From: Pseudohongiella spirulinae
GTDB lineage: Bacteria; Pseudomonadota; Gammaproteobacteria; Pseudomonadales; Pseudohongiellaceae
Assembly (NCBI RefSeq): GCF_001444425.1
Contig: NZ_CP013189.1
Location: 1,426,001 to 1,490,000 of the forward strand
Direction of reading: 5' to 3'
DNA length: 64,000 nucleotides
Shown here: one piece after another, positions 2,511 through 40,090 of the stretch
Position numbering within the stretch: the stretch's first letter is position 1
Layout of the letters: every line of letters starts with the position of its first letter
Translations under genes and position numbers: made by a program
The notes under the pieces: generated by a model
Database searches by the model: none
What the model saw: only the letters and a program-made list of their open reading frames with translations
What the model was told of the DNA's origin: nothing

Positions 2511-3311
2511 ATGTCTGAAACGCTTGTTGCAGATAATGCGTTATACAGCGATTTGTCTGCGTATTATGATGACTTCTGTGCTGGCGTGGATTACCACGAA
2601 CAGTCTGCCTTTGCGCATCGGGTATTGAGCGCGTTTGGCAGTCCGGACGGTGCAGTAGCTTTGGATCTGGCGTGCGGCACCGGCGCACATCTTGCGCGTA
2701 TGCAGGCCTATGGCTATGAGCTGCATGGCCTGGATCTGAATCCGGCCATGCTGAAACAGGCACAGGTCAAAGTCCCGCGGGCCAGACTCATCGAGTCAGA
2801 TATGTCTGCACTTGACGTGCACGAAGTATATGATCTGGTGAGCTGTTTTCTATATTCCATACATTACAGCCATCCGGTTTCTTCCTTGCGCCAGACGCTC
2901 ACGAGGGTTCTGCAGGCACTTAAACCCGGAGGCGTGTTTGTATTCAATGCGGTCAATGCTCAGGGAGCATTGACCGAGCGGCCGGTGGTCACGCAGATCA
3001 AAAGAGGCGAGCAACAATTAACTTTCCGCTCGGCCTGGCATTACCGGGGGCAGGGGGAAACGCTGGATTTACATCTGACCATTACCCGTCAAGACTCAGC
3101 AGGCTGCGAGCAATGGCATGATCAACACCAGATGACGGCCATCACCATAGGGGAGTTGCAGTCGATCCTTAGCGAAACGGGATTTGAAGTCACCGTGCTG
3201 GAGCACAACTACGGCGCGTTTATCCCCTGGAAGGGCGAGTCAGACAATGTGATTTTTATAGCCTGCAAACCAGAGACTGCTATTCCCGATGCCGGACAGC
3301 ATCCTGGCTGA
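2511..3311 (+). CDS. class I SAM-dependent methyltransferase
   Basis: The product is a soluble 266-residue protein of the Rossmann-fold methyltransferase superfamily. Motif I is visible as ALDLACGTGAHLARM, followed by the acidic ribose-binding residues in LHGLDLNPAMLKQA. A post-motif region (ARLIESDMSALDV) and motif IV-like LVSCFLYSIHY follow. The ALKPGGVFVFNAVNA segment corresponds to the beta-strand after the catalytic helix. The acceptor substrate cannot be read from the sequence. An in-frame GTG at 2502 is possible, but the ATG at 2511 (MSETLVADNALYSDL) matches the usual beginning of this group. The gene follows a terminator and precedes the large inverted repeat, so it seems to be expressed alone. 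Confidence 0.85.
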   Translation: MSETLVADNALYSDLSAYYDDFCAGVDYHEQSAFAHRVLSAFGSPDGAVALDLACGTGAHLARMQAYGYELHGLDLNPAMLKQAQVKVPRARLIESDMSALDVHEVYDLVSCFLYSIHYSHPVSSLRQTLTRVLQALKPGGVFVFNAVNAQGALTERPVVTQIKRGEQQLTFRSAWHYRGQGETLDLHLTITRQDSAGCEQWHDQHQMTAITIGELQSILSETGFEVTVLEHNYGAFIPWKGESDNVIFIACKPETAIPDAGQHPG

Positions 3312-3419
3312 AGTGACGATAAAGCCCGCCCAGCCTACACGCTCGGAACTCAGCTAAACCGGATCTGGCGGCATTGAGTGACGCAACTCAAACTCATAGA
3401 TTTCCCACTACGAAGTGTT

Positions 3420-3611
3420 GCCCTGCTGCATTGGCTTTCGATCGATGAGGACCAATCAGACCGCGTTTATCCTTTTGCCATTCTCCCGATCAGCGGGCGG
3501 GACTGTCTGAGTCCGGAACGGTGCAGCTGCGACGTCGAGTTCCCCCCCCCGCCGGGGGAATGGCAAAAGGATGCGGTCGGTCCGATTGATCGAAAGCCAT
3601 TGCAGCAGGGC
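3420..3611. repeat. large imperfect inverted repeat (about 60-bp arms, about 66-bp centre)
   Basis: The left arm (3420-3487) and right arm (3554-3611) are reverse complements over most of their length. Shared blocks are GCCCTGCTGCA, TGGCTTTCGATC, GGACC, GACCGC and ATCCTTTTGCCATTC, interrupted by short indels in the left arm. The centre holds a run of nine C residues (3542-3550), itself followed by GGGGG. The structure occupies an otherwise gene-free gap (3312-3636) between the methyltransferase and the prp regulator. Short open frames run through it on both strands with mirrored peptides, which is the expected effect of the palindrome and not evidence of coding. It could be a miniature inverted-repeat element, a repetitive extragenic palindrome or a remnant of a mobile element. 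No transposase and no clear target duplication is visible. Confidence 0.75.
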
Positions 3612-3636
3612 TTCCACTGCCCGAGCTTCGAGCTGT

Positions 3637-3677
3637 ATTGTTGACAATCTGATAATATTGGGTGACCATGCACCCAA
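3637..3677 (+). promoter_or_regulatory. prp operon promoter region with two operator-like dyads
   Basis: The dyad ATTGTTGACAAT (3637-3648) closely resembles the ATTGT-N2-ACAAT operators known for FCD-type GntR regulators. It lies directly before a GATAAT hexamer (3651-3656) that would serve as a -10 box. A second inverted repeat, TTGGGTG-N6-CACCCAA (3658-3677), follows at the likely transcription start. Together they suggest that the downstream GntR protein represses its own operon. No good -35 hexamer is present, so the promoter call is weaker than the dyads. Confidence 0.55.
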
Positions 3678-3705
3678 ATATACCGCTAAATTGACCTTTC
3701 AACCC

Positions 3706-4407
3706 ATGGATCATCTACAATCTGCCTCTGTGAGTCGCCCGGATAACCCACAGACCCTGTCTGATGGCGCCTTTGAACGCATCCAGAATGCCATTGTCAA
3801 AGGAGAGATAGCGCCAGGTACCCGACTGAGCGAACAGTATCTGAGCAGTACCTTCGGCATTGGTCGCGGCCCCCTGCGAGAAGCCATACGCAGACTCGAA
3901 GGTCGTCGTCTGGTAGTGCGTATTCCGCATGCCGGTGTGCGAGTGGTATCACTGAGCTATGAGGAACTGCTGGAGCTGTACTACGTGCGCGAGGGCCTGG
4001 AAGGTATGGCCTGTCGGCTGGCCGCACAGAACATGAGCATCGAAGAAATAGCCGGCTTGCGACAGGTGTTGGCCGAGCATGAGCAGCACAGTGGCTTGCA
4101 CAGCAATGAATCCTATTATCAGCAGGAAGGCGAGCTGGATCTGCATTACCTGATCATCAAGGGCAGCAAGAACAGAATGTTGCATGATCTTTTGTGCAGC
4201 GACCTTTATCACCTGCTCAGAATGTATCGTTATCGCTATTCCACGGTACCCAGACGGCCACAACAAGCCTTTTCAGAACATCACCGGATTATTGAGGCAA
4301 TCGCTGACCGCGATGGTGAATTGGCGGAAATACTGATGCGGCGGCATATCAGTGCCTCAAGGCGCAATATTGAACAATTGATGCGGGAGCAGAGCGACCG
4401 CGACTGA
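3706..4407 (+). CDS. GntR-family (FCD) transcriptional regulator of the methylcitrate operon
   Basis: The 233-residue product has an N-terminal winged helix-turn-helix (about residues 20-85; [47 protein letters not shown]) and a C-terminal FCD ligand-binding domain (about 95-225) of helices carrying His and Arg residues. In many gammaproteobacteria a GntR regulator of this type sits first in the prp operon and controls it, instead of the sigma-54 activator PrpR of enterics. Here the stop codon is 28 bases before prpB, so regulator and enzymes are probably one transcript. The ATG at 3706 is chosen because upstream codons extend into the repeat and operator region. The ligand is likely 2-methylcitrate or a related intermediate, which is inference from context. 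Confidence 0.88.
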
Positions 4408-4435
4408 ATATTTGGCAATCTTTCAGGAGTACATT

Positions 4436-5323
4436 ATGCACAAGACACCCGGACAACTTTTCCGAGAAGCAGTGGCAGAAGAACAGCCGCTGCAGGTAAT
4501 CGGGGCAATTAACGCCAATCATGCGCTGCTGGCAAAGCGCGCGGGATTTCGCGCCATTTACCTCTCTGGTGGGGGCGTCGCGGCAGGGTCGCTGGGTTTG
4601 CCCGATCTGGGTATCACCGGTCTTGATGACGTGCTGACTGATGTGCGCCGCATCACCGATGTCTGTGATCTGCCGCTGTTGGTCGATGTGGATACCGGTT
4701 TTGGTGCCAGCGCGTTTAATGTGGCCCGCACGGTTAAATCAATGATCAAGTTTGGCGCGGCGGCCATGCACATAGAGGATCAGGTGGGTGCCAAGCGCTG
4801 TGGCCACCGGCCCAATAAAGAGATTGTGACTCAACAGGAAATGGTCGATCGCATCAAAGCGGCGGTCGATGCACGCACGGACGAGAGTTTTGTGATCATG
4901 GCCCGCACGGATGCGCTGGCTGTGGAGGGACTGGATTCTGCGCTGGATCGTGCCGAGGCGTGTATTGAGGCTGGCGCGGATATGATCTTCCCGGAAGCCA
5001 TTACGGAACTGTCCATGTACCAGAAGTTCACCGAGCGCCTGCAGGTACCGGTGTTGGCTAATATCACTGAGTTTGGCTCGACTCCGCTGTATACAGTGGA
5101 TGAGCTGGCCTCTGTTAATGTCGGCTTGGTTTTGTATCCACTCTCGGCTTTCCGGGCCATGAACAAAGCGGCAGAAAATGTTTATATGGCTGTGCGCCGT
5201 GACGGCACTCAGAAGAACGTGGTCGACACCATGCAGACCCGTGCGGAACTCTATGACAGGATTAACTATCACGTGTACGAAGAGCACCTGGATGCATTGT
5301 TTGCCAAACAGAAGCAGTCCTGA
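4436..5323 (+). CDS. prpB: 2-methylisocitrate lyase
   Basis: PrpB splits 2-methylisocitrate into pyruvate and succinate, the last step of the methylcitrate cycle. The 295-residue protein is of normal length for the family and belongs to the PEP mutase/isocitrate lyase superfamily. The catalytic KRCGH motif is present with Cys122 and Lys120. The metal-binding acidic segment VDVDTGFG and the HIEDQ loop are also visible. The start at 4436 ([13 protein letters not shown]) has a good Shine-Dalgarno (CAGGAG) eight bases upstream; a longer in-frame reading from 4412 lacks one. It is the second gene of the operon, 28 bases after the GntR regulator and 70 bases before prpC. Confidence 0.97.
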
Positions 5324-5393
5324 TGCTCCGGAAGAGGGTTGGCAGGTAAACCGAATTGAATCAAGAATCAAAATCAGATAAGGAGTACAAAAC

Positions 5394-6536
5394 ATGGCAG
5401 AAGGTAAAGTATTAAGCGGTGCGGGACTACGCGGGCAGGTGGCCGGTAAGACAGCCCTGTCGACCGTGGGTGTGTCAGGCTCGGGGTTGACTTATCGTGG
5501 TTACGATCTGGAAGATCTGGCGGAAAATTGTCAGTTTGAGGAAGTCGCTTATCTGGTTCTCAAAGGTGAGTTGCCGACACAGGCGCAATTGACTGAATAC
5601 AAAGCCAGATTAAAATCTTTGCGCGGTTTGCCTAAAGCATTAAAAGAAGTGCTGGAGCGAATTCCAAAAGATGCCCATCCGATGGATGTCATGCGTACTG
5701 GCTGCTCGGTGCTGGGTAACCTGGAACCTGAGGATACCTCTGTAGTAGGACAGTTCCCGACACAACAGGCAGCTGCCGATCGTATGCTGGCGATTTTTCC
5801 ATCTATTATCTGTTACTGGTATCGATTCAGTCACGATGGTGTTCGTATTGATGAGAATACCGATGATGATTCTATTGGTGGTCACTTCCTGCATATGCTG
5901 CTTGGCAAAAAGCCGAGCGAGTTGCATTCCACTGTCATGAATGTGTCGCTGATTCTGTATGCCGAGCACGAATTTAACGCATCGACGTTCACCGCCCGGG
6001 TCTGTGCATCCACGCTGTCTGATATCTTCAGTTGTGTGACCGGCGCTATTGGTTCACTGCGTGGGCCTTTGCATGGTGGAGCCAATGAAGCGGCCATGGA
6101 GATGATCGAAAAGTTCCGTGATGCAGAGCATGCCGAGCAGGAAATGATGGGCATGCTGGCGCGCAAGGAAAAAATCATGGGTTTTGGTCACGCCATTTAC
6201 AAAGAGTCTGACCCGCGAAATGCCATCATCAAATCCTGGTCACAGAAGCTGGCTGCTGATGTGGGTGACACGGTACTGTATCCCGTTTCCGTGCGATGTG
6301 AAGAAGTGATGTGGCGCGAGAAAAAGCTGTTCTGTAATGCCGACTTCTTCCATGCCTCTGCTTATCACTTTATGGGAATACCCACCAAACTCTTTACACC
6401 GATATTTGTGATGAGTCGCCTGACCGGATGGGCTGCTCATGTCATGGAACAGCGTGCGGATAACCGCATTATCCGGCCCAGTGCCGAGTATGTTGGTCCC
6501 GAACCGCGTAAAGTCACGCCTATTGCCTCAAGGTAA
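5394..6536 (+). CDS. prpC: 2-methylcitrate synthase
   Basis: PrpC condenses propionyl-CoA with oxaloacetate to give 2-methylcitrate, the entry step of propionate oxidation in the cytosol. The 380-residue length matches the short prokaryotic methylcitrate synthases better than the longer citrate synthase GltA. The start MAEGKVLSGAGLRGQVAG is typical of PrpC. Expected catalytic residues are His192 (HEFNAST), His266 (GFGHAIY) and Asp317 (NADFF). The start has an AAGGAG ribosome binding site at 5380-5385. It lies between prpB and acnD, with only six bases between its stop and the acnD start. Some residual citrate synthase activity is normal for the family. Confidence 0.96.
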   Translation: MAEGKVLSGAGLRGQVAGKTALSTVGVSGSGLTYRGYDLEDLAENCQFEEVAYLVLKGELPTQAQLTEYKARLKSLRGLPKALKEVLERIPKDAHPMDVMRTGCSVLGNLEPEDTSVVGQFPTQQAAADRMLAIFPSIICYWYRFSHDGVRIDENTDDDSIGGHFLHMLLGKKPSELHSTVMNVSLILYAEHEFNASTFTARVCASTLSDIFSCVTGAIGSLRGPLHGGANEAAMEMIEKFRDAEHAEQEMMGMLARKEKIMGFGHAIYKESDPRNAIIKSWSQKLAADVGDTVLYPVSVRCEEVMWREKKLFCNADFFHASAYHFMGIPTKLFTPIFVMSRLTGWAAHVMEQRADNRIIRPSAEYVGPEPRKVTPIASR

Positions 6537-31245: not shown

Positions 31246-31833
31246 TCAGCGTACCGCCACAACGATCCAGTCAGCAATCAAGGCAGGCTTGGGCTCGTTC
31301 TCCAGCTCAATAGTCACCGAGTGACGTAGCAATACTTCCCGTTCGTTACGCTCTTCTGCGCTGAGTAACGTGAATCGTCCTCTGATTCGGGAGCCTATCC
31401 TGACAGGATTCAGGAAGCGCACCCGGTCCAGACCGTAAATAATGCTCTGCTTTGTGCCAATAATCTTAAGCGTGCCATAAGTCGCAAAGGTCGGCATCAG
31501 CGCCATGGTGAGCATGCCGTGGGCAATGGTGCCGGCGTAACAGGTTTCTCGCTGTGCCCGGTCCTGATCGACATGAATAAACTGGAAATCACCCGTAAAA
31601 CTTGCGAACTGGTTGACCAGATTCTGGGTAATGGGGAACCAGTTGGTCATTCCAACTTCACGGCCTAAAAATGCCTGAGCCTGTTGAACTGTAGCGCGAA
31701 CGGGTGCCGTTTCGCCAGCCAGTCCCAGGGTGGCGGTTTTGACATAGTTACGTAGCTGTGAATCGGCCGGCATGGCTGCCGAGTCATTCAGATAGTTACG
31801 AAGGTCCTGTAAAGAGTCTGTCAGTGCCATCAT
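31246..31833 (-). CDS. MaoC-like dehydratase domain protein
   Basis: The 195-residue product belongs to the hot-dog-fold MaoC family, enoyl-CoA hydratase 2-like. The hydratase-2 motif is recognisable as FTGDFQFIHVD and AGTIAHGMLTMAL, in which the Asp and His are the catalytic pair. An N-terminal extension of about 60 residues precedes the domain. It is the third gene of a minus-strand series with cytochrome c4 and an exported RidA (48-base gap). Why a CoA-thioester enzyme accompanies two periplasmic proteins is unexplained. It converges with the gene at 29596-31218. Start may be at 31833 or three bases later. Confidence 0.9.
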   Translation of the reverse strand: MMALTDSLQDLRNYLNDSAAMPADSQLRNYVKTATLGLAGETAPVRATVQQAQAFLGREVGMTNWFPITQNLVNQFASFTGDFQFIHVDQDRAQRETCYAGTIAHGMLTMALMPTFATYGTLKIIGTKQSIIYGLDRVRFLNPVRIGSRIRGRFTLLSAEERNEREVLLRHSVTIELENEPKPALIADWIVVAVR

Positions 31834-31881
31834 GTGCCTGAAATGGCAGGGCGCCGCAATAGCAGCGCCCTGGCTGCCGAG

Positions 31882-32400
31882 TTAACGGGTTGTTGCGGTA
31901 ATCACTTCGACTTCAACAAACATCAGGGGGCCGACCAGGCGCGCAACCTCAACGGTAGAGCGGGCGGGCAGACGGGGCTGCTCCTCTGTTCCCCAATACA
32001 TACGGTAGGCTTCCATAAAACCGTTAAAGTCCATCTCACCACCATTGGCGGGGTCGCCGACCAGGAAAACGGTCATTTTTACGACATCACCCATGCTCAG
32101 TCCCAGATTCTCGAGATTGGCTTTGGTGCGTTCAAAGACACTGATGGCCTGTGTTTTGGTGTCGCCATAAAACTCCGGCGTACCACGCTGCGCATTGGGG
32201 TTGGCGGCCGCCGGTGTTACGCCACTGTGAAAAATGATAGAAGCGCCAGGACCCACTTCCACCGCGTTGGCGATGGGGAAGGTGCCTGCATTCGGGTGAA
32301 TGATCACGTCCTGGGCACTGACCTGAGCGGCGCCGAAGGAAAGCCCCAGGGCCAGTGATGCACCAAGTAATGAACGTTTGATCAGTGTTGCTTGTGCCAT
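31882..32400 (-). CDS. exported RidA-family protein
   Basis: RidA proteins hydrolyse reactive enamines and imines made by PLP or flavin enzymes and normally work in the cytosol. This 172-residue product begins with a clear signal peptide (RSLLGASLALGLSFGAAQVSAQ), so it should act in the periplasm. The conserved RidA features are visible: FHSGVTPA, QAISVFERTKANLENLG, VVKMTVFLVG, PARSTVEVARL (the arginine that binds substrate carboxylate) and a final VEVEVIT strand. Insertions around residues 65-80 make it longer than typical RidA (about 130). It lies between cytochrome c4 (47-base gap) and MaoC (48-base gap) in one probable operon. Confidence 0.88.
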   Translation of the reverse strand: MAQATLIKRSLLGASLALGLSFGAAQVSAQDVIIHPNAGTFPIANAVEVGPGASIIFHSGVTPAAANPNAQRGTPEFYGDTKTQAISVFERTKANLENLGLSMGDVVKMTVFLVGDPANGGEMDFNGFMEAYRMYWGTEEQPRLPARSTVEVARLVGPLMFVEVEVITATTR

Positions 32401-32447
32401 GGAAGATCTCCTCGAGGCAATTGGATTACAATTATAAAACCGGGCGG

Positions 32448-33080
32448 TTAGCGACCCAGTGTATTGATATAGCTGACAATATCTTTCATGGCCTGTCGGT
32501 CTGGTATGGTCTGCGCCATCATCCGCATTTGCGAGCCGTATTGATCGCGGGAGTCGTCACCGCGATACCCTTCTTTGAAATTGATCAGTTGATTCATCAG
32601 ATACCAGTCATTTTGACCGGCCAGTGCAGGCGCGTTCATGGCCTGATTACCCTCTGCGTTCGGTCCATGACAGGCTGCACAGGGTTGGTAAAGTGTCTGT
32701 CCGCGATCGGGATTGCCATCAGTGATGGTTATCTCTGCGGGTTTGTATTCCCAGGTCGCAACCCAGTCCAGAATGTCTTCTATACTCTCGTCAGTCAAAA
32801 TAACAGCCATGGGCTGCATTTCCTGCCCCGGAATGTCCTGTGGATGCGTGCCGCGCAGGCCGTCCCGGAACAACTCCAGTTGACGTTTCAGGTACCAGCG
32901 CTCCATGCCAGCCAGTCGCGGAGCATCAATGCCCTCATTACCCTGACCGTCGGTGCCATGACAGGTCAAACAGAACCGGTCACTGACTTCTACGCCATCG
33001 ACGGTAGCGGCCTGTGCTGTGGTGCACAAGACGGTGCCGACTGCCAAACTTAACCAGAATCCTGCTTTCTTACTCTTCAT
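32448..33080 (-). CDS. dihaem cytochrome c4-type protein
   Basis: The 210-residue product has a signal peptide (SLAVGTVLCTTAQA) and two class I cytochrome c domains. The haem-binding motifs are CLTCH (residues 37-41) and CAACH (134-138). This two-domain arrangement is that of cytochrome c4, a periplasmic or membrane-attached electron carrier to terminal oxidases. Potential axial methionines lie in each domain (QEMQPMAVIL and SQMRMMAQ). It is the first gene of a minus-strand operon with the exported RidA and MaoC. It is separated from the upstream TonB-receptor gene by a strong terminator. Confidence 0.92.
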   Translation of the reverse strand: MKSKKAGFWLSLAVGTVLCTTAQAATVDGVEVSDRFCLTCHGTDGQGNEGIDAPRLAGMERWYLKRQLELFRDGLRGTHPQDIPGQEMQPMAVILTDESIEDILDWVATWEYKPAEITITDGNPDRGQTLYQPCAACHGPNAEGNQAMNAPALAGQNDWYLMNQLINFKEGYRGDDSRDQYGSQMRMMAQTIPDRQAMKDIVSYINTLGR

Positions 33081-33097
33081 ACTTCTTTTCTCTCGTT

Positions 33098-33127
33098 AAA
33101 AAAGGGACGGGGCGAACCCCGTCCCTT
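33098..33127 (-). terminator. intrinsic terminator after the TonB receptor gene
   Basis: On the minus strand, AAGGGACGGGG and CCCCGTCCCTT form an 11-base-pair stem with a four-base loop, followed by a run of T residues. It lies between the receptor stop codon and the cytochrome c4 start and should separate their transcripts. Confidence 0.88.
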
Positions 33128-33148
33128 CGTTTCTACAGCCAGGAACGA

Positions 33149-35704
33149 TTACATATCGTACTGGACACGAGCATACACATAGCGACCGTTCGGGCTGTAT
33201 GCCGTCGAGGTCAGATACAGGTTGCTCGAGGTTGAGCCGAAGTCAACCGGACGCACCTTCGGTGGCATCTTGTCAAACAGGTTATCGGCACCCAGCACAA
33301 ATGACAGGTTTTCGCGGAACGAATAACCCAGTTCAGCGCTGAATATCACAGCATCGCTGACCCAGTAGTCACGTGACGCATCGGCTGAGGACGGCGCCAG
33401 TTTGTACTCATCATAGTAGTTAGCCTGAGCAGTAATGCGCAGGTCGCCCATCAGATGAGTGGCCCGGAAGTTGCCACGGTTTGTCGGGATACGCTCAGTC
33501 AGAGATATCTGAGTGGCGCGGTTCAACAGTCCCGGGGTGAACGAGTCAATTTCCTGATCCGTCCAGGCCCATGAGCCGTTGAATGTAGTGCGGCTGCCGT
33601 TGTCCCAATTCTGGGTATACGATGCCACAACTTCCACACCCTGGTTGGTGGTATCCATGTCATTGGTATAGTAACGGATTCGGGTCAGCGATCCCGCTCC
33701 GGCAATACCCGATGCTTCCAGCTCTTGCGCAATCTGCGGTGTAATGTCGAAGAAGCTGGAGTTCAGGATACGATCTTCCATCTTGATGTTGTAGTAATCA
33801 ACAGTCAAATCGATGGGGCCAACCTGAGTAGCGATACCGAGCGACAGGTTTTCAGATTTCTCCGGCGTCAGTACCTGACCCCCAAAACGTACAGAGATCG
33901 GATTGGTCGGTGGAATCTGACCCTGAGCAACCGGGATATTGTTGTCTACACCGGTTGCCAGGTTGGAGATGTTCGCCTGACCGGGAGATGGCGCACGGAA
34001 ACCGGTGCTGACTGTACCACGCAGATTGGTAGTGTCGGACAGACGGTATCGCATGGACAATTTGCCGTTGGTAGTGTCACCGAAGGAGTTATAGAAATCT
34101 TCATAGCGCAGTGCAGCACCAAGTAGCAGACGATCGGTTACGTCGGCCTCCAGGTCAACATAGAAGGCCCAGTTCTTGCGGTCCCAGGAGCCCTGCTGTT
34201 GCGGGCTGAAACCCTGGAAACCGTCGGAGCCAACACCAGCGCCCAGGTTCGCGTAAGGTCCGATACGCCATGAGTCTTCGTCGTAGTTGTCTGTCTTGAA
34301 GATTTCACGACGCCATTCAATACCGTAAGCGACACTCAGCGGGCTGTAAAAACCATCAATATCGACTGGCTTCACCAGATCCAGGCCGACAGTATTCTCA
34401 ATGGTAGTGTATATACCGGGACGGAATTCAGTGGGAGAATCCGGACCCATCGATGGGTTGGTGGTGTTGTACAGGAAGTAGTCAACACTTGAGTAACCCA
34501 GACCGACGCTGAGATCATAGCGGGTACCGTCGTCCAGTTCACCGCGGAAACCTGAGGTGTTGGAGACGTCTACCAGGTCTGCACCAAACTGCGGGGTATA
34601 ACCGCCCGGCCACCACTCAGTGAAACTGAAACAGTCTGGGTTGTTGATGCTTTCGGTCATGGCTGCCAGCGAGCTTGTGCCGTGTGCGGCATTGGGCCCG
34701 CGGGGAATCACCGGGCAGTTGCCACTGCCATCCTCGGTCACATCAAAAAACAGCTGGTTTGCACCGCTGGTAAATACACCACCGCGGTTTTCCGGGTTGC
34801 GGTAGAAGAAGCCCAGGTCGGTTGTTTTTTCACCATAGCCGCCGAATGAATAGAACTCCAGGTCATTACCCAGGTCGATACCAGCGTTAAAGAAGGTATT
34901 GAATGCTTCAATGTCCGGCAGACCCTGACGCATAACTGTGTCGCTGGTCAGCGATGACTCAAGCACCGCAATATTGCCGCGGTCAATGATGTCCTGAGCA
35001 TCTTGCCGCTGGATAGCCCGGTTGGTGGGCTGCTGGTTGGTTGCGTCAAAGCTCAGGCTCAGGAAACCGTTATTGCCCAGCGGCAGGCCTACGTTACCGG
35101 CCAGGTAGTGGGTTTCGCCGTCACTGTTCTGGGTGTACATACCAGTTCGGTATTCCAGCGACAGGCCTTCGCTGTTTTCTTTCAGGCGGAAGTTGAATAC
35201 CCCGGCAATAGCATCGGAGCCGTACTGTGCAGATGCGCCGTCACGCAAGACTTCGACCTGTTGCAGTGCAATAGATGGAATCATGGAGGTGTCGGGGAAA
35301 TGGGTACCTGTATTGCCATACTGAATGGCTGCTGAGCGGTGGCGACGTTTGCTGTTGACCAGAATCAGGGTGTCGTCTGCGGGCAGGCCACGGAGCTGAG
35401 TCGGGCGCACCAGGGATTGTGTGTCGCTGATGTCGCGTGCTTCAACGTTGAAAGACGGGACCAGGTTCCGCAGCAGGTCATTGATATCGGTGGTGCCTTG
35501 CTCACGGAAGTCCGTGCCGCCAATTACATCGATAGGCGCTGGAGAGTCCAGGGCTGTTCGTGGTGCACCACGCGAACCTGTGACAACAACTTCCTCCAGC
35601 TCTGGGGTGGCCTGCTGTGCATAGGCTGCGGGTGCAACAGCAGCCATTGAGCCCAGCAGCACCAGCGATGATGACAGTGTGCAGAGTTTAAGTGACTTGT
35701 TCAT
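33149..35704 (-). CDS. TonB-dependent outer-membrane receptor
   Basis: The 851-residue product has a signal peptide (SLVLLGSMAAVAPAAYAQ) and a TonB-box-like segment (TPELEEVVVTGSRG). A plug domain follows (about residues 45-180, with NDLLRNLVPSFNV, LRGLPADDTLILVNSKRR and VEVLRDGASAQYGSDAIAGVFNF). The rest is a 22-stranded barrel ending YVYARVQYDM, with a C-terminal aromatic strand. Receptors of this subclass, frequent in marine gammaproteobacteria, take up larger organic substrates as well as iron complexes; the sequence gives no siderophore-specific mark. The gene lies between a CadC-like regulator gene and the cytochrome c4/RidA operon on the same strand. The 201-base gap upstream (35705-35905) contains no further gene. 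Confidence 0.93.
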   Translation of the reverse strand: MNKSLKLCTLSSSLVLLGSMAAVAPAAYAQQATPELEEVVVTGSRGAPRTALDSPAPIDVIGGTDFREQGTTDINDLLRNLVPSFNVEARDISDTQSLVRPTQLRGLPADDTLILVNSKRRHRSAAIQYGNTGTHFPDTSMIPSIALQQVEVLRDGASAQYGSDAIAGVFNFRLKENSEGLSLEYRTGMYTQNSDGETHYLAGNVGLPLGNNGFLSLSFDATNQQPTNRAIQRQDAQDIIDRGNIAVLESSLTSDTVMRQGLPDIEAFNTFFNAGIDLGNDLEFYSFGGYGEKTTDLGFFYRNPENRGGVFTSGANQLFFDVTEDGSGNCPVIPRGPNAAHGTSSLAAMTESINNPDCFSFTEWWPGGYTPQFGADLVDVSNTSGFRGELDDGTRYDLSVGLGYSSVDYFLYNTTNPSMGPDSPTEFRPGIYTTIENTVGLDLVKPVDIDGFYSPLSVAYGIEWRREIFKTDNYDEDSWRIGPYANLGAGVGSDGFQGFSPQQQGSWDRKNWAFYVDLEADVTDRLLLGAALRYEDFYNSFGDTTNGKLSMRYRLSDTTNLRGTVSTGFRAPSPGQANISNLATGVDNNIPVAQGQIPPTNPISVRFGGQVLTPEKSENLSLGIATQVGPIDLTVDYYNIKMEDRILNSSFFDITPQIAQELEASGIAGAGSLTRIRYYTNDMDTTNQGVEVVASYTQNWDNGSRTTFNGSWAWTDQEIDSFTPGLLNRATQISLTERIPTNRGNFRATHLMGDLRITAQANYYDEYKLAPSSADASRDYWVSDAVIFSAELGYSFRENLSFVLGADNLFDKMPPKVRPVDFGSTSSNLYLTSTAYSPNGRYVYARVQYDM

Positions 35705-35905
35705 TGATTTTTCCTTTTATGTAGTAAGTGCATCTTGTTCGTGAACCGATTAAGAGCCTGCCGTGCTGAATTATTATGGTTGTTGCACCAACGGCACTCT
35801 GATTATTGAGTCATTGCATCAGTAAAGTCCTCCCTAAAACCTTCTTAATACCTACTAAAACACTCTTGAATAACGCGTCAGACAAGGCTTTGCACTGTGG
35901 AGGTC

Positions 35906-38089
35906 TCAATGAATGCGAACCGCATTCAAGGCAGAAGACTGTGATTGTCGCAGGGCGCGATAGCGCTCGTACTCTGCCCACTGGTGTTCGCTCCACAGGT
36001 TGTTTCTGGTCATAAACTGCTGCTTCTCATAGATATCGCGGGACTTGCGACTCAGTGGGACGCCAGTCACCGTTTCCATGGCCATCACGCCTTCCATCAG
36101 ACGGCGTTGCCAGCTTATTCCCGCGCCCAGGGACTCCAGCAGTTCCTGATATTCCGGTGCATGAAGAACCTGCTCAGGGAACAATTTCTCGGCAGCGTGG
36201 GTGACGTTGAACAGCCTTCGGAGCTGCACGGGTTGCAGGTTTTGCCAGTAGGCAATACCTGTTTCCAGATCGCCTGCCATAAAAGCCAGTACACCATTAT
36301 TGTAGGAGAAGTCGGGGTGTTTCTTCATGAGGTCGAGGTAGCTGCCATCGTCAGCGCGAATATCGCCGGATAAAAATGCCATGACGCTTTCAGTGTAATG
36401 CGTCAAAATGCCCTCCTGGTCCACTTCCCGCTGTTGATTGAGATAAATCTGGGCCTGACGAAAATCGCCCAGCAGGGCCAGGTTAACGGCTACGGAGCCA
36501 AGATAGGCGACATGATAAGGTCGCTGCTGAAGCTGGTTCTTACGGGCGATGACTGATTCCGAAGGAGTCAATACATTGTTACGGTAACTCCAGACTTCAT
36601 CCGGGGATATCTCGTAGGGGCCGACCTCTGATGCCAGATTCAGAAACTGATTTGCTTCCTCGTACATCCGTGCGCCGATAAGCAAGAGTGCATAATGCGC
36701 CATTGCGAACCGAGGTGGATTTTCAGACAGAATCTGCTCCCTCAATTGCATTTCCTGCTGAACGTAACTGGACCCACGCATGCGCAATTTGATCGCGTGG
36801 ATAGAGTCAAGGACCGGGCTGTCGGGGTCAATACGGCTGACCTCGCGATGCACATCCAGGACCAGTTGCAGTAGCTCATTAATCCTTTCAGTGCCACTGT
36901 ATACGGCCAGATTGTTGGCGGCTGTTGCCATGCCGTGATAGGCATTCAGAAAGTCCGGGTCAAGCTCCACAGCAGCCTGGTGATGTTCTATCGCCAGTTG
37001 CCAGTCAGCCGGGTTGAACTGGTTATTGTAGAATTCCCCGCGCAGGAAGCGTTCATAGGCAAGAGGATTAGTAGTGCCCCAGTCGCGCATCTGGCTACGC
37101 TCTGCCTCGTTGAGGTAGATGCGCAAAGCGCTGACCACATTCTCGACAATCTCATCCTGAACGGCAAATATATCATCCATCGGCAGGTCAAACTGATCTG
37201 AGTACTCCCGCAGGCCGTTGTCGGCTCTTACGAGCTGCACAATGACTCGCAACCGTCCTTCAGAGCTCATTACACTGCCTTGCAGAATGTGATCAGCAGA
37301 TTGTATGTAATGAGTTGTGCCGTTGGTCTGCAATGCAGCATTCATCAGTTCAGGCGAACGCGGCGGTGATATGATCTGTAAATGTGTCAACTTGGCCAGG
37401 CCATGGATAAGCGCCTCGCGAATGCCTTCGGCGAGTATCTGGTTTGCATCGCTGAAGTCGCGACTGGCGAATGGCAGCACGGTCAGTCTGATGACGCCAT
37501 CAGCTTCAGGCGTTGAATCAGGTGAGCGAAGCATTCCCGGAACTGTCAGTACGGCGATAATCAGCACCAGAGCCGCTGCCATGCGTGTCCAGACTGGTTG
37601 ATTGGACAGCCAGTTGCTGCGGTCTGAAGACGATTGTTGTTCAGACCGGTCTCGCACCAAGTTGGATTCAGGCTGGCCCGAGGTGGGCTCTTTCGCCATT
37701 TCCGCTGCCGCAGACTGTTGCTGCGCAGGGAAATTTACGGTGGCGATCAGGGTGTAACCGCGCTTGGGTATGGTCTTGATGTAGCGGGGTTGGCCGGCCC
37801 TGTCGTTCAGGGCGCTGCGTAACTCGGCAATCGCCTTATGAACAGCGTGATCACCGGCGATCGGTGAGCGCCAGATGATTTCAAGCATGTCCGAAGGACT
37901 GACAACCTGACCGACATGGTCAATCAACATGCGCAACACATCCATGCTGCGCGGGGTTATTTTCACCGGTTCTGATTCGCTGTTTGTGGGATCAATTTTT
38001 GAGACAGTACAAGTACTCGGCGACACTAGCCAGTCGCCGATCTGTATGCTCTGATATTGCTGTGTTTCGTAGCTTGTTTTTATGGCCAT
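35906..38089 (-). CDS. CadC-like membrane regulator: winged helix, transmembrane segment, TPR region
   Basis: The 727-residue product has an OmpR/PhoB-type winged helix at the N-terminus (about residues 15-115; VKITPRSMDVLRMLIDHVGQVVS, HAVHKAIAELRSAL, KTIPKRGYTLIA). A variable Gln/Ser-rich linker and a single membrane segment (about 165-185, MAAALVLIIAVLTV) follow. The long C-terminal part has a VLPF...ILAEGIREALI region and repeated helical units (HHQAAVELDPDFLNAYHGMATA) of the TPR type. It would sense an envelope signal and bind DNA directly, like CadC and ToxR. The ATG at 38089 is chosen over a TTG at 38119. The adjacent TonB receptor and the divergent amine oxidase are the likely targets, by location. 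Confidence 0.88.
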   Translation of the reverse strand: MAIKTSYETQQYQSIQIGDWLVSPSTCTVSKIDPTNSESEPVKITPRSMDVLRMLIDHVGQVVSPSDMLEIIWRSPIAGDHAVHKAIAELRSALNDRAGQPRYIKTIPKRGYTLIATVNFPAQQQSAAAEMAKEPTSGQPESNLVRDRSEQQSSSDRSNWLSNQPVWTRMAAALVLIIAVLTVPGMLRSPDSTPEADGVIRLTVLPFASRDFSDANQILAEGIREALIHGLAKLTHLQIISPPRSPELMNAALQTNGTTHYIQSADHILQGSVMSSEGRLRVIVQLVRADNGLREYSDQFDLPMDDIFAVQDEIVENVVSALRIYLNEAERSQMRDWGTTNPLAYERFLRGEFYNNQFNPADWQLAIEHHQAAVELDPDFLNAYHGMATAANNLAVYSGTERINELLQLVLDVHREVSRIDPDSPVLDSIHAIKLRMRGSSYVQQEMQLREQILSENPPRFAMAHYALLLIGARMYEEANQFLNLASEVGPYEISPDEVWSYRNNVLTPSESVIARKNQLQQRPYHVAYLGSVAVNLALLGDFRQAQIYLNQQREVDQEGILTHYTESVMAFLSGDIRADDGSYLDLMKKHPDFSYNNGVLAFMAGDLETGIAYWQNLQPVQLRRLFNVTHAAEKLFPEQVLHAPEYQELLESLGAGISWQRRLMEGVMAMETVTGVPLSRKSRDIYEKQQFMTRNNLWSEHQWAEYERYRALRQSQSSALNAVRIH

Positions 38090-38518
38090 AGGCTTTATTT
38101 CTAATATTCCTGTATGCAAACAAAAAGTCCGTCAAACGTCAAGCATTTACGAGTAATGTTTGCGTGACATCAAGGGTTCGCCAGATACAGTTGTGTCATA
38201 TTGTTTCTGCTGTACCGGCAGTGCCGATAGTGCCAATGGTCATGCAAGTTAGAGGCCATGGGCAGGGAGTTGCTGTCCAGCCGGAGAACAGGATGGGGCC
38301 GACGATATTTGGCGGCCACTGCGGTGCTTGGCTTGATTTTTTGCACAGTTTTGGTGCGGGATAGCTGGCTTGCCTATGCGGTCAGATGCAGGCTGGTAGG
38401 TTTTAAGGATGTTTTTGGCAGGACTTTCGGTGCTGCATTGGAGCATAATACGGTCAAAGCAGTCCGTATCAGCAGGTTGATGCGGTGGAACAAGTAGTAT
38501 AAGCAGAGGATTTTGTTA

Positions 38519-40090
38519 GTGTCGAAACCAGTAACTCGTCGAGAATTCCTGAATTTAATCGCCGCTACAGGTGGCGTTGCTACGGTGTTGGGTGTAGGCG
38601 GTGCGCTGGGGCTCATCCCTGCAAGCACACAGGCCAGCGTCCCAAACCTGATGCCGCTTAACGGCCAGCGCAGGCGCGTCGTGGTGCTTGGCGGTGGCAT
38701 ATCGGGTCTGACGACGGCCTATGAACTTGGCAAGGTCGGTTACGATTGCACGGTGCTGGAATCTTCCCACCGTTGTGGTGGGCGCATTATGACTGTTCGC
38801 CATGGTGATCTGATTGATGAGATCGGTAACCCCCAGATCTGTAAATTTGATGATGAGCCGCACCTGTATTTCAACTGTGGTGCCGCCCGTTTGCCAAGTT
38901 CGCATAAGAACACCCTCAATTATTGCAAGGAGTTGGGTGTTGAACTGGAAATGTTTATCAATGAGAACAAGCATGCGCTGGTCCATGATCCAGACCTCAA
39001 CGGCGGCAAACCGATGCGCAATATCGACGTCAGCACCAACCTGAAAGGTTTCATGGCAGAGCTGATGTTCAAGGGCTTTAATAACGCGGAGCTTGATCAG
39101 CCATTTACTGACGATGAGGCTGCGAAACTGCTGGCAGTCATCCGGCAGTTTGGTGACCTGGATGAGGATGGTCGTTATTCTGGCAGTCTGCGAAATGGTT
39201 ATGCCTCGGGCGGATTTATTAGCGACCCGGTACAGAAGGAAATGATACATGTGCGTGACCTGCTCAAGGCAAATACCGGTCTGCTACGCTCTGTTTTGCT
39301 GGAAAATGAAGGGGAAACAGCGCCGATGCTGATGCAGCCCATTGGCGGAATGGATAACATAATCAAAGGGTTTCTGCGCAAGTTGGAAGGCAAGGTTGAG
39401 TATCACGCCATGGTGATGGCAGTGCATGATCATGGTGATCAGATCGACGTTACCTATGATCAGAATGGCCAGCGCCTCACGATTACTGCGGACTACGTGT
39501 TTAACTGCATTCCTTCGCACCTGATGGTCGGCATTGAAAACAATTTCCCGGAAGAATACCGGTCTGCGATGAAATCGATCCGACGGGGTGAGGCCTTTAA
39601 AGGTGCTTTCCAGATGAAGCAGCGCTTCTGGGAAAATGAAGAGATTTATGGCGGTATCACCTGGACTAATCAGCCTATCCGCCAAATCTGGTATCCCTTC
39701 CATGGTCTGTTGAAGCAGAAAGGTGTCATGCTGGCAGCTTATGATTATGGTGGTGGCTCTGGTTTCATGCGTATGACACATGATGAGCGTATTGAGGCCA
39801 TGTTAAGTCAGGGTGAGAAAATCCACCCGCAGTATCGTGAGATGGCCGAACATGGCATTACGATAGCCTGGCACCGCATGAATCACATGCTGGGATGTTC
39901 CGCTCGCTGGGGTGCAAGGACTCCGGAAAACGAGCGTAATTACCAGATCCTGCAGCAACCGGCTGGTCGTCACTACATGATTGGCGATCAGATCAGTCGC
40001 AAGTCGGCCTGGATGGAAAGCGCCATTCAATCTGCCCACTGGGCAATGGCGCATATGGATCAACGCGTGCGGGCAGAAGCCGGCGCTTGA
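38519..40090 (+). CDS. Tat-exported flavin amine oxidase-family protein
   Basis: The 523-residue product begins with a twin-arginine signal (TRREFLNLIAATGG), so it should be folded with its cofactor and exported. The FAD-binding fold follows with VVVLGGGISGLTTAYELG and a second glycine motif region SHRCGGRIMT, as in monoamine oxidases and L-amino-acid oxidases. The C-terminal FAD contact is GRHYMIGDQIS, followed by WMESAIQSAHWA. Translation most likely starts with GTG at 38519: AGAGGA lies nine bases upstream, while an in-frame TTG at 38513 is too close. The 429-base gap between this gene and the CadC-like regulator (38090-38518) contains no convincing gene. The amine substrate is unknown. 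Confidence 0.9.
   Translation: MSKPVTRREFLNLIAATGGVATVLGVGGALGLIPASTQASVPNLMPLNGQRRRVVVLGGGISGLTTAYELGKVGYDCTVLESSHRCGGRIMTVRHGDLIDEIGNPQICKFDDEPHLYFNCGAARLPSSHKNTLNYCKELGVELEMFINENKHALVHDPDLNGGKPMRNIDVSTNLKGFMAELMFKGFNNAELDQPFTDDEAAKLLAVIRQFGDLDEDGRYSGSLRNGYASGGFISDPVQKEMIHVRDLLKANTGLLRSVLLENEGETAPMLMQPIGGMDNIIKGFLRKLEGKVEYHAMVMAVHDHGDQIDVTYDQNGQRLTITADYVFNCIPSHLMVGIENNFPEEYRSAMKSIRRGEAFKGAFQMKQRFWENEEIYGGITWTNQPIRQIWYPFHGLLKQKGVMLAAYDYGGGSGFMRMTHDERIEAMLSQGEKIHPQYREMAEHGITIAWHRMNHMLGCSARWGARTPENERNYQILQQPAGRHYMIGDQISRKSAWMESAIQSAHWAMAHMDQRVRAEAGA

Follow-up and report, generated by a model that had tools for sequence, protein, structure and literature searches.

Genes for a predicted exported flavoprotein, cytochrome c and Rid3 protein form a recurrent set suggestive of periplasmic, cytochrome-linked L-amino acid oxidation

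Several genes of Pseudohongiella spirulinae, lying on the 64,000-nucleotide stretch of DNA that was analysed (the window), are best explained as a set for a periplasmic, cytochrome-linked (respiration-linked) L-amino acid dehydrogenase paired with an imine hydrolase of its own, a reading to which we give a probability of about two in three. The original prediction was of an extracytoplasmic amine-oxidation pathway, and genome comparison largely bears it out, with the substrate class refined to L-amino acids. In the proposed mechanism, the Tat-exported flavoprotein would take hydride from an L-amino acid and release a 2-imino acid, the exported dihaem cytochrome c would reoxidise the reduced flavin and feed the respiratory chain, and the exported Rid3 protein would hydrolyse the imino acid, giving ammonium and a 2-oxo acid and sparing periplasmic and membrane components from the reactive imine. 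The TonB receptor probably imports a substrate, or retrieves a product or its metal complex, and the CadC-like membrane protein is probably a sensor of a periplasmic signal that controls both the divergent oxidase gene and the genes for receptor, cytochrome and Rid. What the sequences show directly is which genes are there, their export-type N-termini, their families, the residues retained and the conserved linkage; the reaction, the path of the electrons, the substrate class, the part played by the receptor and the regulation are inferred from these.

The ORF list and the Pfam search agree with the positions and families claimed for six genes, which are given here with window coordinates, together with a stem-loop:
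31246 to 31833, minus strand: MaoC-like protein, a neighbour judged outside the set (PF01575)
31882 to 32400, minus strand: predicted exported Rid3-type imine hydrolase (PF01042, nearest solved chains 9bka/9bkc, signal-like N-terminus)
32448 to 33080, minus strand: predicted exported dihaem cytochrome c of the c4-like type, probably the electron acceptor (two PF00034, two CxxCH)
33098 to 33125, minus strand: stem-loop and T-run lying between the receptor and cytochrome genes, which may act as a partial terminator (by eye)
33149 to 35704, minus strand: TonB-dependent outer-membrane receptor, often found with the set (PF07715 and PF00593)
35906 to 38119, minus strand: CadC-like membrane winged-helix regulator, divergent from the oxidase (PF00486; CadC model below cut-off)
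38513 to 40090, plus strand: Tat-type flavoprotein, roLAAO-like L-amino acid oxidase/dehydrogenase (PF01593, nearest solved chain 2jae, TRREF)

The oxidase gene, starting at GTG 38519 or TTG 38513, is divergent from the Rid gene, with three genes and 6.1 kb in between, and is separated from the cytochrome c gene by two genes. The gene order of the minus-strand operon proposed before was recovered, but a stem-loop of 9 base pairs followed by a T-run (33125-33098 on the minus strand, seen by eye and partly in a consensus scan) stands between the TonB receptor and cytochrome genes, which may therefore not share one uninterrupted transcript. A comparable stem was seen by eye at the equivalent place of the L012 locus, and the consensus scan counted 13 terminator-like sites in the window against 9.2 in shuffles (sd 3.4), not clearly above the shuffles. 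MaoC, placed in the same operon by the original prediction, is judged to fall outside the set: membership was rejected because an unrelated gene for a TonB receptor parts it from Rid at four loci (L008, L009, L010, L011) and because it was not detected at L007, and for this gene a chance neighbourhood holds.

The distance between oxidase and Rid in the window could suggest that all these genes are chance neighbours without shared function. For the oxidase, cytochrome and Rid3 this is very unlikely, the chance being minute, as their linkage recurs over Gamma-, Alpha- and Betaproteobacteria despite altered gene orders, with a same-strand row of oxidase, cytochrome and Rid in the Rheinheimera group and others. 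Two even genome samples, 249 phylum-wide and 274 class-wide, were searched, a strong Rid3 match being defined as E ≤ 1e-45. Co-occurrence in other genomes had been proposed as a check, and it was found: 13 genomes over both samples carry a strong Rid3 match, 12 of these with the oxidase nearby (within 3.5 kb in 11 of the 12, at 6.3 kb in the window's own genome), and nine of the 12 sets of oxidase and predicted exported Rid include a cytochrome c gene. Phylum-wide, the oxidase is near Rid3 in all 11 strong-match genomes, within 3.5 kb in 10, and is present in just 3 of the 238 genomes with no such match (Fisher p 8e-17 over the 249 genomes, relatedness ignored); class-wide, it is near Rid3 in three of four strong-match genomes. 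These counts leave out eight genomes of the phylum sample whose Rid matches are weak (E 1e-15 to 1e-20); one of them also accounts for the weak match in the class sample. None of the eight has the oxidase, and with them the count becomes 11/19. The three of these matches that were inspected (L055, L086 and L087) look like canonical cytosolic RidA. Among loci found through Rid similarity alone, 28 of 35 have the oxidase and 25 of these 28 a cytochrome gene; L040 (30% identity, E 1e-4) was left out of the 36 Rid loci, and L033 and L076 are one locus, which the Rid scan and the phylum sample each turned up. The Pfam search confirmed cytochrome c in all ten representatives submitted, and the tree omits L006, L022 and duplicate rows. 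The partners also occur apart: the oxidase is found with no Rid3 match in the genome in G338 and G399 (with cytochrome) and in G240 and G286 (without), and Rid3 is found without the oxidase in genome G143 and at loci L024, L027, L029, L034 and L036.

The N-terminus of the oxidase carries a Tat-type TRREF motif and a hydrophobic stretch, as do those of its nearest relatives, and its PF01593 match is in agreement with the Tat-exported flavoprotein predicted from the outset. Of the 46 oxidase ORFs, 43 have an RR motif; among these, that of the second copy at L031 is spurious, lying in an over-extended frame, and was discounted. The general label of amine oxidase was replaced by L-amino acid oxidase-like. 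When the solved chains were searched with the single protein, the nearest was 2jae, the L-amino acid oxidase of R. opacus (E 3.2e-75), other L-amino acid oxidases coming next; with a profile, 2jae reached 1.5e-136 versus 3.7e-27 for the best MAO-B, and L-amino acid oxidases stood above MAO chains in the best 60 of 87 matches. A plain amine specificity of the MAO/NicA2 kind is unlikely, as L-amino acid oxidases outrank MAO chains in both searches, and since the flavoprotein is closest to the Rhodococcus L-amino acid oxidase, L-amino acids rather than simple amines are its likely substrates. We take Arg84 and Tyr371 of roLAAO to be the pair that binds the substrate carboxylate; R126 and Y410 of the oxidase align with these provided that the published numbering of roLAAO runs one ahead of the chain index. 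R126 is invariant (12/12 aligned sequences) and position 410 is Tyr in nine of 12 and Phe in three.

The dihaem cytochrome c4 recognised beside RidA was confirmed, with CxxCH motifs at residues 37 and 134, PF00034 in two stretches and cytochrome c4 1etp as nearest solved relative (E 2.2e-15); its most likely role is that of electron acceptor. A dihaem cytochrome is not universal, since dihaem forms go with one oxidase group and monohaem forms with the other, and the cytochrome gene directly adjoins the oxidase in the Rheinheimera group, L023 and L074 (same oxidase group as the window). L-amino acid oxidases, which use O2, are the closest enzymes of solved structure, and the flavoprotein could be a true periplasmic oxidase making H2O2 as an antibacterial or signalling agent, with a cytochrome that aids detoxification or is unrelated. 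Such an activity would suit the sets that have no cytochrome (L014, L021, L022, L051, L079, L080), whose flavoproteins may be oxidases, and K363, presumably the lysine close to flavin N5 that is credited with helping the reaction with O2, appears kept. It is nevertheless unlikely for the set as a whole: oxidase and Rid3 come with a cytochrome gene in 9/12 sampled sets and 25/28 loci, with dihaem forms in one oxidase group and monohaem forms in the other. Furthermore, the relevant passages of PMC12224317 report that a Tat signal together with an adjacent cytochrome c predicts a dehydrogenase in tested relatives, and that the N5-side lysine is also retained in most dehydrogenases.

The signal peptide that made RidA stand out was confirmed by eye, its N-terminus MAQATLIKRSLLGASLALGLSFGAAQVSAQ being clearly of the Sec type over about residues 1-29, which predicts export. 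Among solved chains the nearest are 9bka, PSPTO3006 (E 8e-32), and 9bkc, PFL1385 (1e-28), both Rid3 according to passages of PMC5619798, and the next Rid chain follows at 1e-8; the window protein is thus closest to curated Rid3 members, a placement by solved-chain E values and not by a subfamily tree. A catalytic-type Arg (R122 of alignment A1; RidA Arg105) and two C-terminal Glu are invariant in 18 of 18 rows. In the FPIANA motif, aligned to RidA by eye, Ile replaces RidA Tyr17 (I18, nearly invariant), as in the Rid3 rule given in passages of PMC4433059. A signal-peptide rule was passed by 52 of 59 Rid ORFs (L028 among them on an unlikely start) and failed by the three canonical RidA proteins of the Rid set, the rule being a crude one that also passes 68 of 272 background ORFs and one of three controls (NMO). 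Some Rid3 proteins look like lipoproteins, and the 9bkc chain begins with a signal-like stretch.

A second pairing was found in P. mirabilis (NZ_OL790811.1), where a predicted exported Rid3 (44% identical) lies directly behind an L-amino acid deaminase matching 5fjm (E 1.6e-288), a flavoprotein of family PF01266 that differs from the PF01593 family of the window oxidase. The pairing comes from two plasmid-collection records of one species, one of them examined in detail. No cytochrome c was seen by eye around the deaminase among the listed ORFs of at least 130 residues, and 369 class genomes gave just three distant matches to the deaminase, at 30-36% identity. We lean slightly towards the view that, for the most part, Rid3 is a branch of the Rid family dedicated to hydrolysing imines outside the cytoplasm. 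Respiratory L-amino acid dehydrogenases from two or more flavoprotein families with no relation to each other, namely the roLAAO-like enzymes with cytochrome c and the deaminase of the Proteus type, would each have recruited it separately, and imine damage control would also be periplasmic.

The TonB receptor, at first counted as a member, is a frequent partner but not a universal one. A relative of the window's receptor, the only kind that the search covered, stands near the set in five of the 12 genomes sampled and at 23 of the 28 loci, and seven of the 12 sampled sets have none within 4 kb; as an obligatory part the receptor is ruled out, being in 5/12 sampled sets only. Its best genome-wide match is beside the set in G470, G292, G416 and G391, about 8 kb off in G339 and elsewhere in G407 and G480, with no match at 1e-30 in G314, G091, G224 and G458. 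The CadC-like regulator was seen with the set in the Pseudohongiella group (eight loci, L005-L012) and nowhere else among the 54 loci scanned. Free amino acids normally cross via porins, and the frequency of the receptor would fit a set acting on amines or an unusual amino compound (peptide-like or a polyamine, for example) imported by it, and not on ordinary L-amino acids. This is somewhat unlikely given the match of R126 and Y410 to the presumed carboxylate-binding pair, the Proteus pairing of Rid3 with an L-amino acid deaminase, and the seven sampled sets with no related receptor within 4 kb. Receptor adjacency could also indicate a link with iron, in which 2-oxo acids would serve as weak siderophores whose iron complexes the receptor imports, 2-oxo acids from Proteus deaminases being known to act as siderophores. 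We see a slim chance for this link: the regulator is CadC-like, and no sign of iron control was seen, the window having no Fur-box-like site within 3 mismatches of one typed consensus.

The lao-cccA-ridA operon and cytochrome-linked amine dehydrogenases are already known, and similar gene sets partly so; the regular export of Rid3 predicted here looks new, as does its association with deaminating flavoproteins of two unrelated families. Imine damage control is treated in Rid papers (e.g. PMC5619798, PMC4433059) in passages that do not mention the periplasm. A conserved Rid that is exported and linked to the oxidation of amino acids in the periplasm would take imine damage control to the cell envelope, Rid3 would gain a physiological partner, the idea of cytochrome-using dehydrogenases would reach the L-amino acid oxidase branch, and there would be a clear substrate class for testing. 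The reading is also relevant to the deaminase of Proteus, long a subject of study, and to the making of auxin by bacteria, for which a gene cluster of similar kind is needed.

Among known systems, the published lao-cccA-ridA operon of Gluconacetobacter diazotrophicus PAL5 resembles the window in uniting genes for a Tat-signal L-amino acid oxidase, a cytochrome c and RidA (PMC5053998). In the passages concerned, transposon insertions in lao left no indole-acetate production from tryptophan, earlier ccm mutants are cited with 5% indole-acetate, OperonDB shows lao with cccA in five other genomes and lao with ridA in another 19, and RidA is not described as exported. The window differs by its c4-like dihaem cytochrome, its TonB receptor, its CadC-like regulator and its divergent oxidase, which precludes a single operon of oxidase, cytochrome c and Rid; the comparison is one of gene content and arrangement. 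The cytochrome c-using flavoprotein amine dehydrogenases NicA2, Pnao and relatives are, like the window oxidase, Tat-type flavoproteins of the amine oxidase superfamily; their exported cytochrome c is encoded beside them, whereas in the window two genes lie between. Passages of PMC12224317 add that one clade uses c4-type dihaem cytochromes, these pairs reacting just modestly with their own cytochromes in solution. Those enzymes were gathered by a NicA2 query, whereas the enzyme of the window resembles L-amino acid oxidases and is accompanied by Rid3; the words RidA, imine and LAAO are absent from that text. PFL1385 and PSPTO3006, the nearest solved relatives of the window Rid, with the catalytic Arg kept, quench imines of L-amino acid oxidase in vitro according to passages of PMC5619798, a text from which the words signal and periplasm are absent, and RidA of a chitin pathway is assigned to the cytoplasm in passages of PMC9537276. 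As for the Proteus L-amino acid deaminase, passages of PMC5651824 describe it as Tat-exported and thought to use cytochrome b, with an activity lowered just slightly by azide and a membrane stimulation that is partly not electron transfer. It belongs to another flavoprotein family, but shares with the pathway proposed for the window set an exported, membrane-associated oxidation of L-amino acids thought to use a cytochrome, with Rid3 alongside.

All six genes of the original prediction were confirmed at their places, by ORF positions and by protein families, on the single 3.35 Mb contig of the genome. Read from 38119, five of them follow one another on the minus strand, and the flavoprotein gene diverges from them:

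38513 (or GTG 38519) to 40090, plus strand, Tat-type flavoprotein (the oxidase)
35906 to 38119, minus strand, CadC-like regulator
33149 to 35704, minus strand, TonB-dependent receptor
32448 to 33080, minus strand, dihaem c4-like cytochrome
31882 to 32400, minus strand, exported Rid protein
31246 to 31833, minus strand, MaoC

In the Pseudohongiella group, the regulator sits between the divergent oxidase and the remaining genes, a spot that is usual for a local regulator. A T-run stem-loop, seen by eye and in a consensus scan, lies 3' of the receptor gene, so that transcription of the receptor may be apart from, or exceed, that of the cytochrome and Rid. The receptor and the regulator each have a putative role in the set. 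At four loci (L008, L009, L010, L011), another TonB receptor gene (955-983 residues), on the opposite strand, separates Rid from MaoC.

By far the closest solved relative of the oxidase is the L-amino acid oxidase of Rhodococcus opacus (2jae, E 3.2e-75), with L-amino acid oxidases of vertebrate type ranking next. A 12-sequence oxidase profile ranks, among the best 60 of 87 matches, L-amino acid oxidases (to 1e-57) first, L-glutamate oxidase second and MAO-B (4e-27) third. In the printed alignment, R126 and Y410 of the oxidase align with chain positions 83 and 370 of 2jae, which we take to be the pair that binds the carboxylate in the R. opacus enzyme, Arg84 and Tyr371; a literature search for support of this pair found no paper. 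R126 is invariant in the 12 aligned relatives, and the Y410 position is occupied by Tyr in nine and by Phe in three. This kinship and residue pattern make L-amino acids the best candidate substrates. An RR motif lies near the N-terminus in 43 of the 46 oxidase ORFs examined, one of the 43 being spurious (the second copy of L031, an over-extended frame); the three ORFs lacking it are those of L022, on a cut contig, and of L033 and L076, which carry the same KR-type copy.

The closest named relatives of the window Rid in the genome scan are in Pseudohongiella, and its closest solved chains are PSPTO3006 and PFL1385, both assigned to Rid3 and both quenching imines from an L-amino acid oxidase according to PMC5619798. 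PMC4433059 describes Rid3 as keeping the catalytic Arg with Ile replacing Tyr17, and FAD amine oxidase genes as clustering with RidA and sometimes Rid3 genes. With RidA aligned by eye, the window Rid matches both residue rules, and its signal peptide is plain. Across 54 loci scanned, 52 of 59 Rid ORFs passed a crude signal rule. The rule is indicative only, since 68 of 272 background ORFs satisfy it as well, and so does one control out of three. The seven failing ORFs are a cut one (L013), three that are canonical RidA-like (L055, L086, L087) and those of L019, L080 and the second copy of L031, whose N-termini are still signal-like. The Rid proteins of L039, L053, L081 and L082 have ends that, by eye, are lipobox-like.

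Two other Rid-family proteins of the window's genome have signal-like N-termini, so that three of its four Rid proteins appear exported. The second (G000:C1:1400594-1400941; L056: 8580-9059, minus strand) neighbours, by eye, two exported ORFs, one carboxylesterase-like and one peptidase-like. In the frame of the third (G000:C1:1417641-1417973; L002: 1294-1845, plus strand), an internal ATG precedes what by eye is a lipoprotein-like signal (LTAC); a short-chain dehydrogenase-like ORF comes next. At other loci, mostly of sphingomonads, a second Rid-family gene lies on the opposite strand beside a TonB receptor (L030, L031, L032, L033, L036, L037 and L038, positions ~3200-5400; L035: 71-616); the L030 copy adjoins genes for a histidine kinase and a response regulator.

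When species genomes were scanned with the window Rid as sole query, 36 loci were obtained, or 35 once the weak match L040 was set aside. The oxidase is present in 28 of the 35, and two of the seven loci without it (L009 and L013) reach the contig edge on the oxidase side. Within the 28 oxidase-bearing loci, 25 sets include a CxxCH protein and 23 have a TonB receptor beside them; the cytochrome is dihaem in the Pseudohongiella and Rheinheimera groups and in L023, and monohaem elsewhere. Pfam confirmed each of the ten cytochromes submitted to it, of which four belong to these loci. In L012 (7299-8477, Pseudohongiella nitratireducens SCS-49), scored as cytochrome present, cytochrome and Rid share a single open frame that contains the Rid signal stretch; either the two genes are truly fused or the sequence has an error.

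Even genome samples were then counted with cut-offs of E <= 1e-45 for strong Rid3 and E <= 1e-40 for the oxidase. In the phylum sample (249 genomes), strong Rid3 occurs in 11 genomes of 8 families and the oxidase in 14; both are present and near in 11, lying <= 3.5 kb apart in ten of these and 6.3 kb apart in the eleventh, the genome of the window. When eight weak Rid matches, canonical RidA-like where read, are included, 11 of 19 have the oxidase. The class sample (274 genomes) holds strong Rid3 in four, the oxidase in four and both nearby in three. The Fisher p values of 8e-17 (phylum) and 5e-6 (class) overstate the association, because the genomes are related, the count includes that of the window, and Rid-linked members served to build the oxidase profile.

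The co-occurrence foreseen in the original prediction is borne out for the oxidase and Rid3, near each other in 12 of the 13 distinct strong-Rid3 genomes of the pooled samples (window's included), and extends to the cytochrome in 9 of the 12 sets (all except G091, G292 and G391); a receptor related to the window's lies <4 kb from the set in five (G000, G470, G416, G292, G391). Seven of the nine cytochromes are Pfam-confirmed, and those of G416 and G480 were recognized by CxxCH only. The best genome-wide receptor match adjoins the set in G470, G292, G416 and G391, is ~8 kb off in G339 and lies elsewhere in G407 and G480, the latter having its second-best match 5.5 kb from the set; a genome-wide search at 1e-30 found none in G314, G091, G224 and G458. 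Overall, the linked genes appear to form a real, conserved functional module, as had been proposed.

Of the plasmid records, 5 of the 35 matching the oxidase and 6 of the 23 matching Rid were examined. In the NCBI annotation, a flavin monoamine oxidase or FAD oxidoreductase, a cytochrome c and a RidA family protein are consecutive on plasmid records of five species (Sulfitobacter faviae, Ketogulonicigenium vulgare, Microvirga ossetica, Comamonas odontotermitis and Paracoccus marcusii), and Sphingomonas parapaucimobilis has an oxidoreductase, a TonB receptor and RidA. Within the stretches viewed, the annotation of Deinococcus radiodurans shows oxidase and cytochrome but lacks a Rid, and the annotations of a Bosea plasmid and of two from Komagataeibacter show Rid but lack an oxidase; in one Komagataeibacter plasmid a short cytochrome c gene precedes Rid, adjoining insertion-sequence genes.

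In an oxidase tree of 43 rows, the dihaem cytochromes accompany one group (window, Pseudohongiella and Rheinheimera groups, L023, L074), the cytochrome being missing in L021 inside it and in L014 beside it. Monohaem cytochromes, with haems counted from CxxCH, accompany a well-supported group of 21 members. Cytochrome type thus tracks oxidase group, as expected of working pairs. L051, L079 and L080, without cytochromes, cluster on long branches, where such a grouping may be an artefact. Elsewhere in the window's genome, a 495-residue open frame contains another dihaem region that is c4-like, with 42% identity (G000:C1:33988-34545).

The best argument for the proposed role of Rid3 is that one type of exported putative imine hydrolase accompanies two flavoproteins that are unrelated to each other, both exported and both oxidising amino acids. 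In Proteus mirabilis (NZ_OL790811.1, L093), an exported Rid3 that the annotation omits, sharing 44% identity with that of the window, lies directly behind a 473-residue L-amino acid deaminase (5fjm, E 1.6e-288), which is a Pfam DAO and not an Amino_oxidase protein and matches the window oxidase only over a short FAD-binding stretch. This 4.08 Mb record is filed as a plasmid; its size and genes look chromosomal. According to PMC5651824, Proteus-type deaminases are Tat-exported, sit on the outer side of the membrane and may depend on cytochrome b to accept electrons, and azide reduces the membrane-stimulated activity only slightly, so that another effect is involved.

We propose that the oxidase would convert an L-amino acid and FAD into an imino acid and FADH2, as its family and residues suggest, that electrons would pass from FADH2 to the cytochrome, by analogy with the Tat-plus-cytochrome rule tested in PMC12224317, and that Rid3 would convert the imino acid into oxo acid and ammonium, by analogy with the Rid3 assays of PMC5619798. 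PMC12224317 also reports that c4-type pairs are slow with O2 and react only modestly with their own cytochromes, which makes the electron step the weaker link for the window set.

Searches of the open-licence literature found no paper on an exported or periplasmic Rid3, where absence is unproven, and none treating RidA, amino acid oxidase, TonB-dependent receptor and cytochrome c jointly; L-amino acid oxidase, RidA, operon and periplasm together retrieved PMC5053998 alone. For L-amino acid deaminase, Proteus and RidA combined, the single match was a paper on metabolic engineering, and wording that begins 'periplasmic rid' occurs in two papers on cable bacteria. PMC5053998 describes a lao-cccA-ridA operon in Gluconacetobacter diazotrophicus, in which a lao insertion abolishes indole-acetate formation from tryptophan, with lao-cccA in 5 and lao-ridA in 19 other genomes, and mentions a periplasmic oxidase-RidA complex in Chlamydomonas. 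The window set is a variant of this published operon type; what looks new relative to it is that Rid3 is regularly exported, that it pairs with two unrelated flavoproteins, that the cytochromes come in two types and that a TonB receptor is often present.
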